Shown here piece after piece: positions 18,417 through 52,715 of a DNA stretch of 64,000 nt. The notes below the pieces were generated by a model, which saw nothing but the letters and a program-made list of their open reading frames with translations, had not been told where the DNA came from and made no database searches. The first letter of the stretch is position 1. Every line of letters begins with the position of its first letter. This DNA comes from Pedobacter sp. ASV12 (GTDB lineage: Bacteria > Bacteroidota > Bacteroidia > Sphingobacteriales > Sphingobacteriaceae), in contig NZ_JAELUC010000009.1 of the NCBI RefSeq assembly GCF_016429155.1, positions 1-64,000 on the forward strand, written 5' to 3'. Made by a program: the position numbers and the translations under genes.

Positions 18417-18425
18417 TTAGAAAAT

Positions 18426-18508
18426 GAATGAGTGATTCAATGAGTGAATTGGAATGTGGCGACTGATCCGCGGGCATTCAATCATTCAAAACTCAATCAT
18501 TCAAAATT
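18426..18508. repeat. Inverted word-repeat between adaptor and pump genes
   Basis: The left arm (18426-18451) holds GAATGAGTGA twice in degenerate form. The right arm (18475-18508) holds CATTCAATCATTCAAA-type words, the reverse complement, also twice. The arms can form an imperfect stem that ends 13 bases before the pump ATG. It may affect mRNA stability or pump translation. Confidence 0.6.
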
Positions 18509-18521
18509 AAACCCTAAACAA

Positions 18522-27152: not shown

Positions 27153-27255
<103 letters not shown>

Positions 27256-38313: not shown

Positions 38314-38317
38314 GATA

Positions 38318-38485
38318 TTTTTTTGTTTGGCGATTGGCGATTGGTGTTTAAGCGTCTGGTGAACGCTTTACGCTTGTCGCTAAGCGCTTGTCTATGTTTA
38401 CTATTTTTGTTTGGCGTTTGGCGATAGGCGTCGTGCGTTTAAAAATGCGCAACGCTTAACGCTAAACACTAGTCTATGTTTACTA
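38318..38485. repeat. Imperfect tandem duplication of about 83 bp covering the sucA 3' end
   Basis: Two units, about 38318-38403 and 38404-38485, each begin TTTTTGTTTGGCG and end GTCTATGTTTACTA. The second unit contains the last codons and stop of sucA. The middles are diverged but share GCG-rich words (GGCGATTGGCGATTGG, GCTTA-TAAGC types). Confidence 0.7.
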
Positions 38486-46731: not shown

Positions 46732-48510
46732 TTAAAAACAGTATTTGTTGGCTTCGATCAGTTGCAATGCTACGTTTTGACGGGCTTGTTTTACGTTAAA
46801 CGGCTCCATTTTGGTAAACCTGCGCAAACCAACCAGCATCATGCGCAGTTCGTCGCCTTCGGCAAAAGCCCAAAGCGCTTCCTTGCCTGCTTTCTGCACG
46901 CCGTCAACCGCTTCTACAAAATAGATGCGCATCATATCTAACTGACCCTTGCAGGCTTCTTCGCCACGTAGGCTAACTAATTTCTCCGTCCTGAGCATAG
47001 CCGATTCCGCTACGTACACATAGCTGGCCATGTCGGCGATATTCATTAAAATTTCCTGCTCTTTTGAAAGGCTCATCATCAACTTTTGCACCGCAGCGCC
47101 AGCCACCATCAAAGTTGCTTTTTTCAGGTTCTGGATAATTTTCTTTTCTGCAGCGAACAAGGTGGTGTCTTCTTCTCCAAAATCGGGGATAGACAGCAGC
47201 TCGTTGGCCACGGCAGTTGCCGGTGTCATCAGGTCCAGTTCGCCCTTCATCGCCCTTTTCAGCATCATGTCAACGGTGAGCAAACGATTAATTTCGTTGG
47301 TACCTTCAAAAATACGGTTGATACGTGCATCGCGATACGACCTGTCCATCGGTGCATCGGCCGAGAAGCCCATGCCACCATAAATCTGTACACCTTCGTC
47401 GGTTACATAATCCAGTACTTCAGAGCCCCATACTTTCAAAATGGCGCACTCTACTGCAAACTGTTCTGTTGATTTGAGTTTGGCTTTTCCTGCCTCCATG
47501 CCACCCGCAACCAAGGCATCGTAAGCATCGTCTATGTTTTGTCCGGCCCTGTAGTTTGCCGATTCTACCGCATAGATTTTGGTGGCCATTTCGGCCAGTT
47601 TATAACGGATTGCTCCATATTTGGAGATAGGCCTGTCGAATTGCACACGTTCGTTTGCATAGTTAACGGCCTGGTTCACCACTTCTTTAGAGCCACCAAT
47701 CGCGGCAGCGGCCAACTTGATCCGGCCAATGTTCAGGATGTTTACGGCAATCTTAAAACCATTTTCCCTTTCCGACAGCATATTCTCTACCGGTACCGGA
47801 CAGTCGTTAAAGAATACCTGGCGGGTCGACGAACCTTTGATACCCATCTTGTGTTCTTCGGGGTTCATGGTTATGCCGCCAAATTCCTTCTCTACAATAA
47901 ATGCAGTTAGGTTCTTATCGTCATCTATTTTGGCAAAAACGATGAAGATGTCTGCAAAACCACCATTGGTAATCCACATTTTTTGTCCGTTGATGATGTA
48001 GTGCTTGCCATCGGCCGATAATTTGGCTTTGGTTTTGCCCGAGTTGGCATCAGAGCCCGAATTGGGTTCGGTTAAGCAGTAAGAGGCCTTCCACTCGCCA
48101 GTTCCCAATTTGGGAATGTATTTGGCTTTTTGGGCTTCATTGCCATAGTAAAGAATAGGCAAGGTGCCGATACCCGTATGGGCCGATAGCGCCACGGCAA
48201 ACGAATGGCCTGCGCCGCAAACATCGGCCACCAGCATTGATGTGTTGAAATTTTTTCCGAAACCGCCGTATTCTTCCGGAATGGACACACCCAAAATACC
48301 GAGTTCGCCAGCCTTGTCCATCAGCGACGGCATGAGGCCTTCTTCCTGGCTGTCGATCCTGTCTAATATGGGGTTAACTTCGGCCGCCAGAAAATCGCGG
48401 CAGGTTTGCGCAATCATCTGTTGCTCTTCATCAAATTCTTCAGGAATGAATACATCCTGGTATTGGGTTGTTGCAATTAGGAATTCACCGCCTTTTATTG
48501 TTTTTTCCAT
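46732..48510 (-). CDS. Acyl-CoA dehydrogenase, VLCAD/ACAD9-like
   Basis: 592 residues. N-terminal helical, central beta and C-terminal helical ACAD domains are followed by an extra helical region (about 425-592), as in very-long-chain acyl-CoA dehydrogenases. Visible signatures are CLTEPNSGSDANSGKTKA (145-162), IYGGMGFSADAP (376-387) and RIFEGTNEINRL (399-410), where E402 is the probable catalytic base. FAD-dependent, it oxidises acyl-CoA to trans-2-enoyl-CoA. Last gene of the operon with thiolase and HCDH/ECH, completing the beta-oxidation cycle. A 121-base repeat-containing spacer separates it from the thiolase. Confidence 0.94.
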   Translation of the reverse strand: MEKTIKGGEFLIATTQYQDVFIPEEFDEEQQMIAQTCRDFLAAEVNPILDRIDSQEEGLMPSLMDKAGELGILGVSIPEEYGGFGKNFNTSMLVADVCGAGHSFAVALSAHTGIGTLPILYYGNEAQKAKYIPKLGTGEWKASYCLTEPNSGSDANSGKTKAKLSADGKHYIINGQKMWITNGGFADIFIVFAKIDDDKNLTAFIVEKEFGGITMNPEEHKMGIKGSSTRQVFFNDCPVPVENMLSERENGFKIAVNILNIGRIKLAAAAIGGSKEVVNQAVNYANERVQFDRPISKYGAIRYKLAEMATKIYAVESANYRAGQNIDDAYDALVAGGMEAGKAKLKSTEQFAVECAILKVWGSEVLDYVTDEGVQIYGGMGFSADAPMDRSYRDARINRIFEGTNEINRLLTVDMMLKRAMKGELDLMTPATAVANELLSIPDFGEEDTTLFAAEKKIIQNLKKATLMVAGAAVQKLMMSLSKEQEILMNIADMASYVYVAESAMLRTEKLVSLRGEEACKGQLDMMRIYFVEAVDGVQKAGKEALWAFAEGDELRMMLVGLRRFTKMEPFNVKQARQNVALQLIEANKYCF

Positions 48511-48521
48511 GTTAGTATTGT

Positions 48522-48622
48522 GTATTGAGTATAGCGTACCGAGACGGTATGCCCATGTTTACAATTATTTTATTTTATTGTCCAATAGTACGAGAGAAGT
48601 ATCTCAATACGCACTACGCAAT
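48522..48622. repeat. Gene-less inverted repeat pair in the thiolase-ACAD spacer
   Basis: GTATTGAG (48522-48529) on the left and CTCAATAC (48603-48610, within TCTCAATACGCACTACGCAAT at 48602-48622) on the right are inverted. The right arm shares the words GTATTGAGA and GTAGTGCG (as complement) with the 30-bp repeats that flank the four-helix-bundle gene. No coding sequence lies between. Confidence 0.65.
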
Positions 48623-48631
48623 TCTATTTTC

Positions 48632-49807
48632 TTACAACAGTTCAAAAATACCTGCCGCGCCTTGGCCCGTACCTACGCACATGGTTACCATGCCGTATCT
48701 TTTGTTTTGCCTTTTGAGTTCGTTGAAGAGCTGCACCGAAAGTTTAGCTCCCGTACAACCCAATGGATGGCCCAAAGCTATAGCGCCTCCATTTACGTTT
48801 ATTTTTTGCGGATCCAAGCCCAAGGTTCTGATCACCGCCAACGACTGCGAAGCAAAAGCTTCATTCAACTCAATCAGGTCGATATCATCTTGCTTCATTC
48901 CCGCCTGTTTTAAAGCTTTCGGAATAGCTTCGATGGGACCAATGCCCATAATTCGTGGCGGTACGCCAGCAATGCCATAACTTACCAAACGGGCAATCGG
49001 CGTTGCACCCAATTCCTTCATTTTCTTTTCCGAAACCACCAGTACAAAAGCTGCTCCATCAGAAGTTTGCGAAGAATTACCCGCAGTAATGCAGCCATCG
49101 GCCGCAAAAACAGGTTTCAGCTTGGCCAAACGCTCAAGCGTGGTATCAGCGCGCGGCCCTTCATCGGTATCCACCACATAAGAACGGGTCTGTTTTTTCA
49201 GGTTGCCATCCAAATAGGTTTCGTTTACCGTAATGGGCAAGATGCCGTCTTTGAGGTGGCCGTTCTTGATGGCTTCTACAGCTTTAAGATGCGAACGATA
49301 GGAAAACTCATCCTGGTCTTCGCGGCTTACATTATATTCTTTAGCCACGGCTTCGGCTGTTAAGCCCATGCCCCAGTACCAGTCTGGATTATTTTTGGCA
49401 ACCGCTGCATTGGGTACCAGTTTCCAGCCTCCAAATGGCATACCCGACATGATTTCTACACCACCGGCCACAATGCAATCGGCCATACCGGCCTTGATTT
49501 TTGCCACGGCCGTAGCAATGGTTTCTAAACCAGATGCACAGTAGCGGTTAACGGTAACGCCAGGCACCTTATCGGTATCGAGCCCCATTAGGCTAATCAT
49601 ACGGGCAACGTTTAAACCCTGCTCGGCTTCTGGCGTAGCATTGCCAACGATTACATCGTCTATTTCTGCCTTATCCAAATTAGGAACCGAGGCCACCAAT
49701 GCCCTGATCACATCTGCCGCCAAATCATCAGCTCTTGTAAAGCGGAATACACCCCTCGGGGCCTTGCCCACGGCTGTTCTTAGTCCTGCTATTATGTATG
49801 CTTCCAT
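48632..49807 (-). CDS. Acetyl-CoA C-acyltransferase (thiolase)
   Basis: 391 residues. The acyl-acceptor cysteine is C90 (NRYCASGLET), the histidine H347 (ALGHPLGCTGA) and the deprotonating cysteine C377 (MCVGTGQGAAG). It cleaves 3-ketoacyl-CoA into acetyl-CoA and a shortened acyl-CoA, the last step of beta-oxidation. Length is standard. It lies between the four-helix-bundle gene upstream and the acyl-CoA dehydrogenase downstream, all on the minus strand. FadA-type rather than biosynthetic is inferred from the operon. Confidence 0.95.
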   Translation of the reverse strand: MEAYIIAGLRTAVGKAPRGVFRFTRADDLAADVIRALVASVPNLDKAEIDDVIVGNATPEAEQGLNVARMISLMGLDTDKVPGVTVNRYCASGLETIATAVAKIKAGMADCIVAGGVEIMSGMPFGGWKLVPNAAVAKNNPDWYWGMGLTAEAVAKEYNVSREDQDEFSYRSHLKAVEAIKNGHLKDGILPITVNETYLDGNLKKQTRSYVVDTDEGPRADTTLERLAKLKPVFAADGCITAGNSSQTSDGAAFVLVVSEKKMKELGATPIARLVSYGIAGVPPRIMGIGPIEAIPKALKQAGMKQDDIDLIELNEAFASQSLAVIRTLGLDPQKINVNGGAIALGHPLGCTGAKLSVQLFNELKRQNKRYGMVTMCVGTGQGAAGIFELL

Positions 49808-49820
49808 TTTATAGTATCTA

Positions 49821-50300
49821 GTAGTGCGTATTGCGTAGCGGGTATTGAGATATACGCGCCTAACACAATTTATTATTTTAAAGCACCTTGAAGTTTATAA
49901 TTCATTTTCTGTAATTCATCGATGTTGTCCAAAAGCTCGCCCGCTATTTGTTCATTTACAAATCCGAGCTTTTCTGCAATTACCAATTGTGTTTGTAACT
50001 CGTATGACGAGCCGTTAGCAACTCCTAAAAACTGTTTGAACTCACCTTTCGTGTTTCGCCCGGCTCCTTCGGAAATATTTGAAGGAATAGAAACAGCACT
50101 GCGTCTTGATTGAGATATTAGACCATAGCGTTCATCAATGGGATAATCCGAAGTAATTTGATAAATCCTCACCGCCAAATCAATTGACTTATTCCAAATT
50201 TTTAAATCTTTTATATTATGCATGCCATAAGTATTTAATTCGATTATTTGGGGATTGATTTTCTATTTTGTCTCAATACGCTTGTCTCAATACGCACTAC
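49821..50300. mobile_element. Candidate IVS/S23-type cassette with 30-bp inverted repeats
   Basis: 480 bases inserted between the HCDH/ECH and thiolase genes. Left repeat 49821-49850 and right repeat 50271-50300 are inverted copies. Read in the same sense both are GTAGTGCGTATTG, eight variable bases, GTATTGAGA, giving at least 22 of 30 identical. The only gene inside encodes a four-helix-bundle protein (49873-50223) of the family found in intervening sequences of bacterial 23S rRNA. No target-site duplication is obvious and no transposase is encoded. That this is a mobile or excisable unit is inferred. Confidence 0.55.
49873..50223 (-). CDS. Four-helix-bundle (23S rRNA IVS/S23-type) protein
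   Basis: 116 residues with the family pattern: LKIWNKSIDLAVRIYQIT, then GLISQSRRSAVSIPSNISEG, then EFKQFLGVANGSSYELQTQL and a C-terminal helix LDNIDELQKMNYKL. These small bundles form pentamers, are encoded within intervening sequences of 23S rRNA genes in several phyla, and are related to the Avd accessory protein of diversity-generating retroelements. No reverse transcriptase or variable repeat is nearby. It is unrelated to fatty acid metabolism, so its place inside this operon is odd; it is flanked by inverted repeats. Molecular function is unknown, probably nucleic-acid binding. Confidence 0.88.
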   Translation of the reverse strand: MHNIKDLKIWNKSIDLAVRIYQITSDYPIDERYGLISQSRRSAVSIPSNISEGAGRNTKGEFKQFLGVANGSSYELQTQLVIAEKLGFVNEQIAGELLDNIDELQKMNYKLQGALK

Positions 50301-50306
50301 TCCTTC

Positions 50307-52715
50307 CTAATTCCTCAACGGCTTCCCTTTGGTTACGATAGACTGTATTCTTTCCAAAGTTTTTCTTTCGCCACAGAGTGACAAGAAGGCTTCGCGTTCC
50401 AAATCCAGCAAGTATTGCTCGCTTACTTCGGTTGGCGATGAAAGGTCTCCACCGCACATGACCCAGCCCAGTTTCTCCGAAATCTTTTTATCGTGTTCGG
50501 AGATATAATGGCCGGCATACATGCTGTTGGCTCCGGCATACACAATGCCCAGGCCTTGTTTGCCTAATACCTTGATGTCTTTGCGCTGCACCGGCTTGGT
50601 GTATCCTGCATCGGCCAATTCTATTGCCTTGGCTTTGGCATCGGCGATTAAGCGGCTTCTGTTCATGCTGATGCCGTACTTGCCTTTTTGCAGGTAACCC
50701 AATTCTGCCGCTTCTACCGCAGAGGTCGACACTTTGGCCATACCAATGGTCAGGAAGCGGTCTTTGAGCGTGTTTTGCACAATCTGATCGGCATGATATT
50801 CGTCAGAGGCCCGCAGCGCAAACTCTTTGGTACCGCCACCACCCGGAATTACGCCTACCCCAAACTCTACCAAGCCCATGTAAGTTTCGGCATTGAGCTG
50901 CACAAAGTCGGCATGGAGACTAAACTCGCAGCCACCGCCCAAAGTCAGGTTATGTGGCGCCACCACTACAGGAATTGACGAATAACGGATGCGCATTGAT
51001 GTATTTTGGAACATCCTGATGGCCATATTCAATTCTTCCCATTCCTGCTCTACAGCCATCATGAAGATCATACCTACGTTGGCACCTGCCGAGAAATTAG
51101 CCCCATCGTTGCCTATCACTACCCCGCGGTAATCCTTTTCGGCCATATCTATGGCCTTGTTAATAGCCGACAGCGTGTCGCCTCCAATGGTATTCATTTT
51201 CGAATGAAATTCTACATTTAAAATGCCATCTCCCAAATCAATGATAGAGGCACCGGCGTTTTTCCAGAGCACCTTGCTGGCCCTGAGGTTATCCAAAATG
51301 ATAAAATCGGCCGTACCCGGAATTTCTTGATAGCTTTTTGAAGGGATGTCGTAATATTTCTTAATTCCGTCTTCTACTTTATAAAACGAAGTATGACCAG
51401 CTTCCAGCATTTCGCCTACCCATGCAGCAGGTTGATGGCCGTATTTTTTCATGCCTTCAATGGCTTCGGTAACACCAACAGCGTCCCAAACTTCGAATGG
51501 GCCTAAATCCCAACCAAAACCGGCACGCATGGCATCGTCTATGCGGTATAATTCGTCAGAAATTTCAGGAATACGATCCGACACATATTCGAACAGTCCG
51601 AAAAAAGAAGCCCTGAACAATTCGCCAGCCTTATCTTTGCCAGCTGCGAAAACCTTCATGCGGTCTTTCACGTTTTCGATACTCTTGGTAAGGTCTAAGG
51701 TGGCCGATTTTACTTTCTCCTGCGGCCGATACTCGAGCGTTTTCAGGTCGAGCGCCAATATTTCGGTTTTGCCTTCGGCATTTTTAGTCTTTTTGTAGAA
51801 GCCCTGCTTGGTTTTATCGCCTAGCCAGTTGTTTTCTTCCATCTTTTTCACGTAAGCCGGCAACTGGAATAAATCATGAGCCTTATCCTCAGGGCAATTA
51901 TCGTACAGGCCTTTGGCCACCTTGATCATGGTGTCAAGCCCTACAACGTCGGTGGTACGGAAAGTAGCCGATTTCGGTCTGCCCAAAGCCGGACCGGTAA
52001 ATTTATCCACTTCCTCAACGGTCAGCCCCATCTTCTCCACCAAGTGCAACAAGGCCATGATTGAGTAAACTCCAACCCTGTTGGCAATAAATGCCGGCGT
52101 ATCTTTACAGAGCACCGTGGTTTTGCCCAGAAACTTATCGCCGTAATGCAATAAGAAATCAACCAGTTCTGGCTTGGTATAAGGCGTAGGAATGATTTCG
52201 AGCAGCCTCAAATAACGTGGTGGATTAAAAAAGTGCGTACCGCAGAAATTTGCCTTGAAATCGTCGCTCCTGCCTTCGGCCATTAAATGAATAGGGATGC
52301 CCGAAGTATTGGAGGTTATCAAAGTACCTGGTTTGCGGAATTGTTCTACCTGCTCGAATACTTTTTTCTTGATGTCCAGGTTTTCTACAACCACTTCGAT
52401 CACCCAATCGCAGTTGGCAATTTTCGGCATATCGTCGTCAAAGTTGCCTGTAGCTATTTTCTGCAACACACTTTGCGAATAAATTGGCGAAGGGTTGGTT
52501 TTTACCGCGGTTTGCAAGGCCGTGTTTACCATGCGGTTCTTCACTGCCGGATGGGTCAGGGACAGACCTTTGGCCTGCTCTTCGGCATTCAGTTCTTTCG
52601 GAGCAATATCCAGCAGCAATACCTCTACGCCAATATTGGCGAAATGACAGGCAATGCGCGATCCCATAATGCCAGAGCCTAATACGGCTACCTTATTTAT
52701 CTTTTTGTTCATCAT
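50307..52715 (-). CDS. 3-hydroxyacyl-CoA dehydrogenase / enoyl-CoA hydratase fusion
   Basis: 802 residues (ATG at 52715 or one codon later). The NAD-binding domain starts at residue 7 (KVAVLGSGIMGSRIACHF), followed by HCDH blocks CGTHFFNPPRYLRLLE and IANRVGVYS and the C-terminal HCDH domain. A crotonase domain follows at about 510-700: GANFSAGANVGMIF, and the two expected glutamates in LGGGCEFSLHAD and GLVEFGVGVIPGGGGTKE. The order HCDH then ECH is the reverse of E. coli FadB and is common in Bacteroidota. It catalyses two steps of beta-oxidation. Overlaps the MarR gene by 23 bases. Confidence 0.93.
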   Translation of the reverse strand: MMNKKINKVAVLGSGIMGSRIACHFANIGVEVLLLDIAPKELNAEEQAKGLSLTHPAVKNRMVNTALQTAVKTNPSPIYSQSVLQKIATGNFDDDMPKIANCDWVIEVVVENLDIKKKVFEQVEQFRKPGTLITSNTSGIPIHLMAEGRSDDFKANFCGTHFFNPPRYLRLLEIIPTPYTKPELVDFLLHYGDKFLGKTTVLCKDTPAFIANRVGVYSIMALLHLVEKMGLTVEEVDKFTGPALGRPKSATFRTTDVVGLDTMIKVAKGLYDNCPEDKAHDLFQLPAYVKKMEENNWLGDKTKQGFYKKTKNAEGKTEILALDLKTLEYRPQEKVKSATLDLTKSIENVKDRMKVFAAGKDKAGELFRASFFGLFEYVSDRIPEISDELYRIDDAMRAGFGWDLGPFEVWDAVGVTEAIEGMKKYGHQPAAWVGEMLEAGHTSFYKVEDGIKKYYDIPSKSYQEIPGTADFIILDNLRASKVLWKNAGASIIDLGDGILNVEFHSKMNTIGGDTLSAINKAIDMAEKDYRGVVIGNDGANFSAGANVGMIFMMAVEQEWEELNMAIRMFQNTSMRIRYSSIPVVVAPHNLTLGGGCEFSLHADFVQLNAETYMGLVEFGVGVIPGGGGTKEFALRASDEYHADQIVQNTLKDRFLTIGMAKVSTSAVEAAELGYLQKGKYGISMNRSRLIADAKAKAIELADAGYTKPVQRKDIKVLGKQGLGIVYAGANSMYAGHYISEHDKKISEKLGWVMCGGDLSSPTEVSEQYLLDLEREAFLSLCGERKTLERIQSIVTKGKPLRN

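Follow-up and report, generated by a model that had tools for sequence, protein, structure and literature searches.

The window analysed here, a stretch of 64,000 nucleotides, belongs to the Pedobacter-like genome of a soil bacterium (G000; 4.48 Mb in 403 contigs) and carries a beta-oxidation operon in the order FadB, thiolase, acyl-CoA dehydrogenase, with an S23 gene in the first spacer and a gene-less hairpin in the second (Table 1). The thiolase is about 90% identical to Pedobacter thiolases (91% to that of P. nanyangensis). The original prediction of an S23-type four-helix-bundle gene inside a beta-oxidation operon is borne out, the gene in the FadB-thiolase spacer matching PF05635 with 126 bits against a cut-off (gathering score) of 33.8. 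The gene lies between inverted repeats, as was also predicted, although these are 31 nt rather than 30 bp long and share, counted by eye, 14 outer and 9 inner identical bases rather than 13 and 9; the arms are 81% complementary. In the 5' arm a 14-nt (2 x 7) word stands twice, its second copy extending slightly beyond the arm, and both arms show a 7/14-nt periodicity. The arm word GTATTGAGAYA has 4 matches in the window compared with 0.01 expected, while a longer form of the word, allowed up to two mismatches, has 2 matches there, a number equalled in 12 of 100 shuffles and thus within chance. In the whole genome, GTATTGAGANA has 17 matches, some of them by eye in coding sequence, compared with none for its reversed control. 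When a 499-nt transcript is folded in silico the arms close on each other; 27 of the 32 paired bases among its first 44 nt have their partner in the last 75 nt, a raw count uncontrolled by shuffles.

Table 1. The S23 cassette of the window and the operon around it
Feature	Position	Strand	Remarks
FadB-like 3-hydroxyacyl-CoA dehydrogenase/crotonase, upstream operon gene	50307..52715	-	
5' arm in operon sense, upstream of the S23 gene	50271..50301	-	
Leader, from 5' arm to S23 ORF	50224..50270	-	TCATCC-like leader motif at 50250-50259
S23/IVP four-helix-bundle gene, 116 aa	49873..50223	-	PF05635, TIGR02436
3' arm in operon sense, inverted partner of the upstream arm	49820..49850	-	
Acetyl-CoA acyltransferase (thiolase), downstream operon gene	48632..49807	-	
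Gene-less hairpin in the thiolase/acyl-CoA dehydrogenase spacer, of the word family of the cassette arms	48511..48631	-	heptad array 48515-48538
Acyl-CoA dehydrogenase, next operon gene	46732..48510	-	

Elsewhere in the window, a perfect array of about 15 heptads stands in a divergent spacer devoid of an S23 gene (27153-27255), upstream of a gene which we take to be dihydrolipoyl-dehydrogenase-like, and two more gene-less hairpins of degenerate repeats lie in codirectional spacers (18417-18521 and 38314-38468). The window opens with a run of well over 100 C (1-120), probably an assembly or sequencing artefact.

PF05635 is the only family found in the window protein, in which no Y1 (HUH) transposase domain was detected. 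The monomer was modelled with a pLDDT of 95.9, and the best PDB match of the model is 2GSC (Xcc0516; TM 0.95, 39% identity), which the available text of PMC4990558 describes as a homopentamer ring. The same text presents S23 as a conserved protein family of unexplained function that is known from the intervening sequences (IVSs) of rRNA.

The window cassette is one of many. There are 8 PF05635 genes in its own genome, and the family is present in 18 of the 21 genomes searched, own genome included. We read 76 S23 loci, a set that omits many weaker or fragmentary PF05635 places, and obtained 75 non-redundant genes after repeats, short frames and short flanks were dropped. When the upstream flank of these 75 genes was compared with the reverse-complemented downstream flank, the mean score was 17.98 for own pairs vs 10.54 for mispaired flanks, and 29 genes scored above the 99th percentile of the mispairs; in direct orientation the means were 13.33 and 10.16, with 10 genes above that percentile. 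A joint criterion of inverted and tandem repeats was passed by 46/75 loci compared with 94/743 mispairs. The case set to refute the original prediction, in which every other S23 gene would lack such repeats, was thus not encountered. Its IVS-type layout in a protein-coding operon, where a long inverted repeat has the S23 ORF in its loop, recurs around further S23 genes, also of other species. No rRNA family was matched at the 40 S23 loci scanned with flanks of approximately 0.4 to 1.5 kb. The S23 gene is codirectional with both neighbours at 69/75 loci, against a baseline of 82/172 for genes of 90-160 aa. Its dN/dS lies between 0.03 and 0.16 in the 10 of 15 hand-picked pairs with a computable dS, the ratios being rough for the four pairs in which dS exceeds 1.

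The fad operon is a recurrent site. Among 80 named thiolase loci, S23 genes lie in the first fad spacer, in the second, or in both (L078, L096, and L098), and always on the operon strand. The other fad spacers at these sites, among those listed, are short, contain a hairpin without a gene, or have arms that enclose a fragment of S23, as seen by eye in L104 and L142. Two further features of S23 loci were observed. In one genome, three S23 genes lie within 3.3 kb in the spacers of an operon that we presume to serve arginine biosynthesis (G005:C12:24733-28016). A leader motif, TCATCC, occurs a few tens of nucleotides before the S23 start in 11/75 upstream flanks (e.g., L027, L037, and L075), as ATCATCC in 9 of the 11, compared with 0.6 expected in shuffles and 0/75 downstream flanks; a variant of this possible binding site is found at 50250-50259 in the window.

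The arms of these cassettes are built on a period of seven nucleotides. In 181 arms from 96 Bacteroidota cassettes (the 75 together with the fad cassettes), the excess of self-matches over shuffles is 7.16 at shift 7, 5.88 at shift 14 and 3.72 at shift 21, and stays at or below 0.92 over the remaining shifts between 2 and 24. Seven is the best period in 93 of 111 scoring arms, while shuffles yield 9 scoring arms. A shift-7 score of at least 9 is reached by the better arm of 66/96 cassettes and by 98/181 single arms, compared with 25/486 ordinary spacers in S23-bearing Pedobacter, 1/179 in S23-less Pedobacter, and 0/26 spacers in an E. coli K-12 stretch of 50 kb. The 30/96 cassettes that fall below 9 do not include the one in the window. 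The median array is 31 nt long, equal to 4.4 units, and four units are the commonest class (148 arrays, all sets). In Bacteroidota G exceeds C in 41/49 upstream arrays and C exceeds G in 42/49 downstream arrays. At some S23 loci the arrays are direct or one-sided instead of inverted (e.g., L322 and L072). Degenerate tandem 7-nt arrays thus flank most of the S23 genes examined.

Sequence comparison firmly indicates that the arm word differs between S23 lineages and matches the lineage of the protein. Arms counted as shared when they scored above 17.5, a cut-off placed at the 99th percentile for pairs with protein identity under 0.35. When the two members of a pair came from different genomes and also from different sites, sharing was seen in 25/2758 pairs below 0.35 identity, in 30/36 at 0.65-0.75, and in 10/12 above that (40/48 at 0.65 or more), and arm similarity follows protein identity with a Mantel r of 0.364, which none of 2000 permutations reached. 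The same pattern holds in 42 cyanobacterial and viral loci, where arms are shared in 2/207 pairs below 0.35 and in 30/32 at 0.65 or above, pairs being unsorted by site. In a tree of 32 S23 proteins from fad spacers the groups track, by eye, the arm word rather than the spacer, and several word groups mix genera; the word labels come from expressions of our own and are weak for two rows, one word appears in two places, and the row of the window, with a separate word, sits in a group of rows that share a different one. The spacer label, the one label put through shuffling, changes at least five times on starred branches of this tree and is somewhat clustered, with 8 changes in all, a number as low being found in 27/500 shuffles. 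Among the 50 pairs of at least 0.65 identity from different sites, same-genome pairs included, arms are shared in 35/36 between two fad spacers and in 3/4 between adjacent spacers but in 2/10 at unlinked sites. These counts point to cassette movement chiefly between neighbouring spacers and only weakly to movement between unlinked sites; a broader reading, in which arms travel with their cassette to unlinked places, was narrowed accordingly.

Arrays of the same kind also occur away from S23 genes. A hairpin detector based on the inverted-repeat score alone did not separate the genomes, and with the tandem criterion added the contrast was weak (2/137 spacers in S23-less vs 23/412 in S23-bearing genomes); therefore, words were counted over whole genomes instead. 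The counts cover two words and 79 Pedobacter genomes, an even sample of a larger group, and 49 of the 79 contain PF05635. Word 1 was found in 38/49 S23-bearing and word 2 in 40/49, and each in 0/30 S23-less genomes; for either word the figures are 45/49 vs 0/30 (Fisher p 8e-18, uncorrected for phylogeny), and with the patterns reversed there were 0 and 1 matches in the entire set. Four S23-bearing genomes hold neither word, and G003 is without one word and G000 without the other. This co-occurrence, which relates the presence of a word to that of S23 per genome rather than to the cognate S23 lineage, may rest on few evolutionary events. A third word pattern had no discriminating value, with one match in the S23-less G012. 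At 60 word loci, some of which are the same site, the S23 gene is in the spacer at 3, while 10 were called inside an open frame and 5 had no assignable spacer; where the word stands in both orientations (23 loci), the forward copy precedes the other. To judge by these matches, the two tested words form dispersed, mostly gene-less arrays that are confined to S23-bearing genomes among the 79 Pedobacter.

The association extends beyond Bacteroidota. By tblastn, S23 was found in 44 plasmid records, mostly cyanobacterial, from which 18 cyanobacterial loci were chosen by hand. Their mean shift-7 score is 19.4 compared with 3.9 in shuffles, their flanks score 15.9 in own pairing vs 8.7 mispaired, and 14/18 loci score at least 9, against 5/106 ordinary spacers of three of these plasmids; G exceeds C in 12/14 upstream and C exceeds G in 7/7 downstream arrays. 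A scan of contigs labelled viral, which may be host DNA, gave 35 S23 loci, 26 of them non-redundant, where 21/26 score at least 9 at shift 7 and 14/26 have an inverted-repeat score of at least 14, with G above C in 18/18 upstream and C above G in 13/14 downstream arrays. S23 had no match in a phage collection at E 1e-3. Judged by its sequence, then, the cassette architecture is found repeatedly among Bacteroidota as well as on plasmids of cyanobacteria and contigs from metagenomes. Some S23 genes of cyanobacterial plasmids (L322, L324, and L333) are placed within CRISPR operons, twice as cas6-S23-cas4 and once as cas10/cmr2-S23-cmr3.

Tandem 7-mers, mostly intergenic, are familiar from the STRRs of cyanobacteria and from the TAACTGA repeats of Beggiatoaceae, the GGGAATC repeats of Xanthomonas, and the heptads of Geobacter, and the S23 arms likewise consist of tandem 7-nt units. 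In contrast to those known repeats, the heptads described here flank S23 genes and track the S23 lineage. Among the periodic repeats in prokaryotic intergenic DNA, heptamers are reportedly the commonest, with a function that is unexplained. They have also been described in Bacteroidetes (PMC4679880, in part). Xanthomonas campestris, the source of 2GSC, has 186 arrays of the GGGAATC type with 70 inverted pairs; such pairs number 70-75 in Xanthomonas, and few of them stand between divergent genes (PMC4692102, in part). In the sections of PMC4679880 available, the spread of heptamers is compared with that of XisH/XisI and a hypothetical protein, and S1, Csp, and Csr are named as possible binders, with S23 unmentioned; MacGregor weighed there the possibility that the mobile element is the repeat-binding protein itself, and saw in the identification of this protein a way of testing it. 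Neither "S23" nor "four helix" occurs in the main text of PMC4679880, PMC4692102, or PMC2700814, and a link between S23 and heptamers was not found in the open PMC literature searched, a body outside which preprints and most subscription journals lie.

We lean towards reading the locus as an S23 cassette between inverted degenerate heptad arrays, part of a REP/RAYT-like and IVS-like gene-plus-repeat system in which an S23 ring recognizes its own heptads. S23 would be transcribed from the host operon promoter, and its ring (the closest solved relative is a homopentamer of four-helix bundles) would recognize the heptads of its own lineage as ssDNA or RNA. Because the arrays comprise four to five heptads (median 4.4) and the ring five subunits, we infer approximately one heptad per S23 subunit; the TRAP ring offers a comparison. 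S23 would keep and spread the arrays, and occasionally the whole cassette, much as RAYTs do with REPs, although S23 would itself bring no nuclease. The arrays would probably spread through host polymerase slippage and template switching, the latter an event of quasi-palindromes. Heptad binding, array spreading, and any RNA processing are here inferred activities. As in RAYT/REP systems, the gene stands between inverted repeat copies, in the window and at 46/75 loci (direct or one-sided at some), gene-less copies are dispersed in spacers, and the repeat is tied to the presence of the gene, for two words and uncorrected for phylogeny. Unlike in those systems, the S23 gene encodes no Y1 (HUH) transposase, the repeats are degenerate heptad arrays instead of fixed palindromes, and these genomes have RAYT-like genes as well, most of which are accompanied by repeats of another kind.

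The cassette also has much in common with the IVSs of 23S rRNA, namely a sense-oriented S23 ORF inside terminal inverted repeats of approximately 30 bp that can form a stem, in an element of approximately 430-500 bp, but it lies between the protein genes fadB and thiolase instead of within an rRNA gene and its arms are heptad arrays. As in the original prediction, the arms could form a stem in the polycistronic mRNA that RNase III processes; the cut would then set free the part with S23 and decouple the genes on either side. The layout is indeed that of rRNA IVSs such as the one of Coxiella, with 428 nt, a 28-bp stem, an S23 ORF, and RNase III (PMC4990558, in part), the window transcript folds in silico with its arms paired, and the two arms of a cassette form a stronger duplex than arms combined from different cassettes (mean -49.5 vs -37.5). 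We nevertheless consider this unlikely, as G-U pairs at arm mismatches number 68 in sense and 110 in antisense, with no sense-strand excess, and the duplex energies are about equal (-49.5 in sense vs -48.3 in antisense, sense being better in 36/75), so that these tests lend no support to selection on an RNA stem or to its removal by RNase III, and as the 7-nt period, the single-sided arrays, and the gene-less arrays tied to S23 are left unexplained. It is similarly improbable, and slightly more so, that polymerase slippage, which has been proposed for heptamers (PMC4679880 and PMC4692102, in part), makes the heptads unaided and that these do no more than offer S23 genes a place to insert, within the array or next to it. 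The presence of the S23 gene in the spacer at only 3/60 word loci would fit such hitchhiking, whereas the absence of both words from 30/30 S23-less Pedobacter genomes and the tracking of S23 lineage by the word argue against it.

Two explanations would place the driving enzyme elsewhere. An Avd-like S23 might be the partner of a reverse transcriptase that acts in trans and copies the arrays; the model shares the four-helix-bundle fold of Avd of diversity-generating retroelements (4DWL) at a TM of approximately 0.8, with a weak Foldseek E of 0.15, and homology between Avd and PF05635 is held likely in the part of PMC10053308 available. RVT_1 presence, however, does not track S23: the Pedobacter genomes G001, G004, and G009 have S23 genes and no RVT_1 match, and G012 has 7 RVT_1 matches and no S23, which makes this partnership very unlikely. 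Least credible, to the point of being highly improbable, is that RAYT (Y1) transposases mobilize the arrays with S23 as cargo. Y1_Tnp is found in 18/18 S23-bearing and 1/3 S23-less genomes, and of the 20 Y1_Tnp loci read, a single one (L244) shows words resembling heptads, far out in its flanks. At most of the 20, however, the flanks have by eye no evident repeat or palindromes of another kind, GC-rich for the most part, in place of S23 arm words, and RAYT was rejected as the driver. As an observation on the RAYT-like Y1_Tnp genes of Pedobacter themselves (L232-L251), many are flanked by their own, mostly GC-rich palindromes.

The interpretation as an IVS alone was thus supported in part, having missed the 7-nt period, the link between word and lineage, and the dispersed gene-less arrays; in view of these three, a gene-plus-cognate-repeat system is the better description. 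The window cassette is not an oddity, since heptad arrays flank most S23 genes examined. More tentatively, and with rather less confidence than we place in the reading of the cassette, S23 proteins across bacteria may be heptad-specific binding rings to which the tandem intergenic heptads of many phyla owe their origin, their spread, and their maintenance, a nuclease-free mobile or regulatory system of which the rRNA IVSs would be a special case that landed in rRNA. The S23 family would in this way be tied to the widespread heptamer repeats of bacterial genomes, and each of the two puzzles would gain a testable partner.
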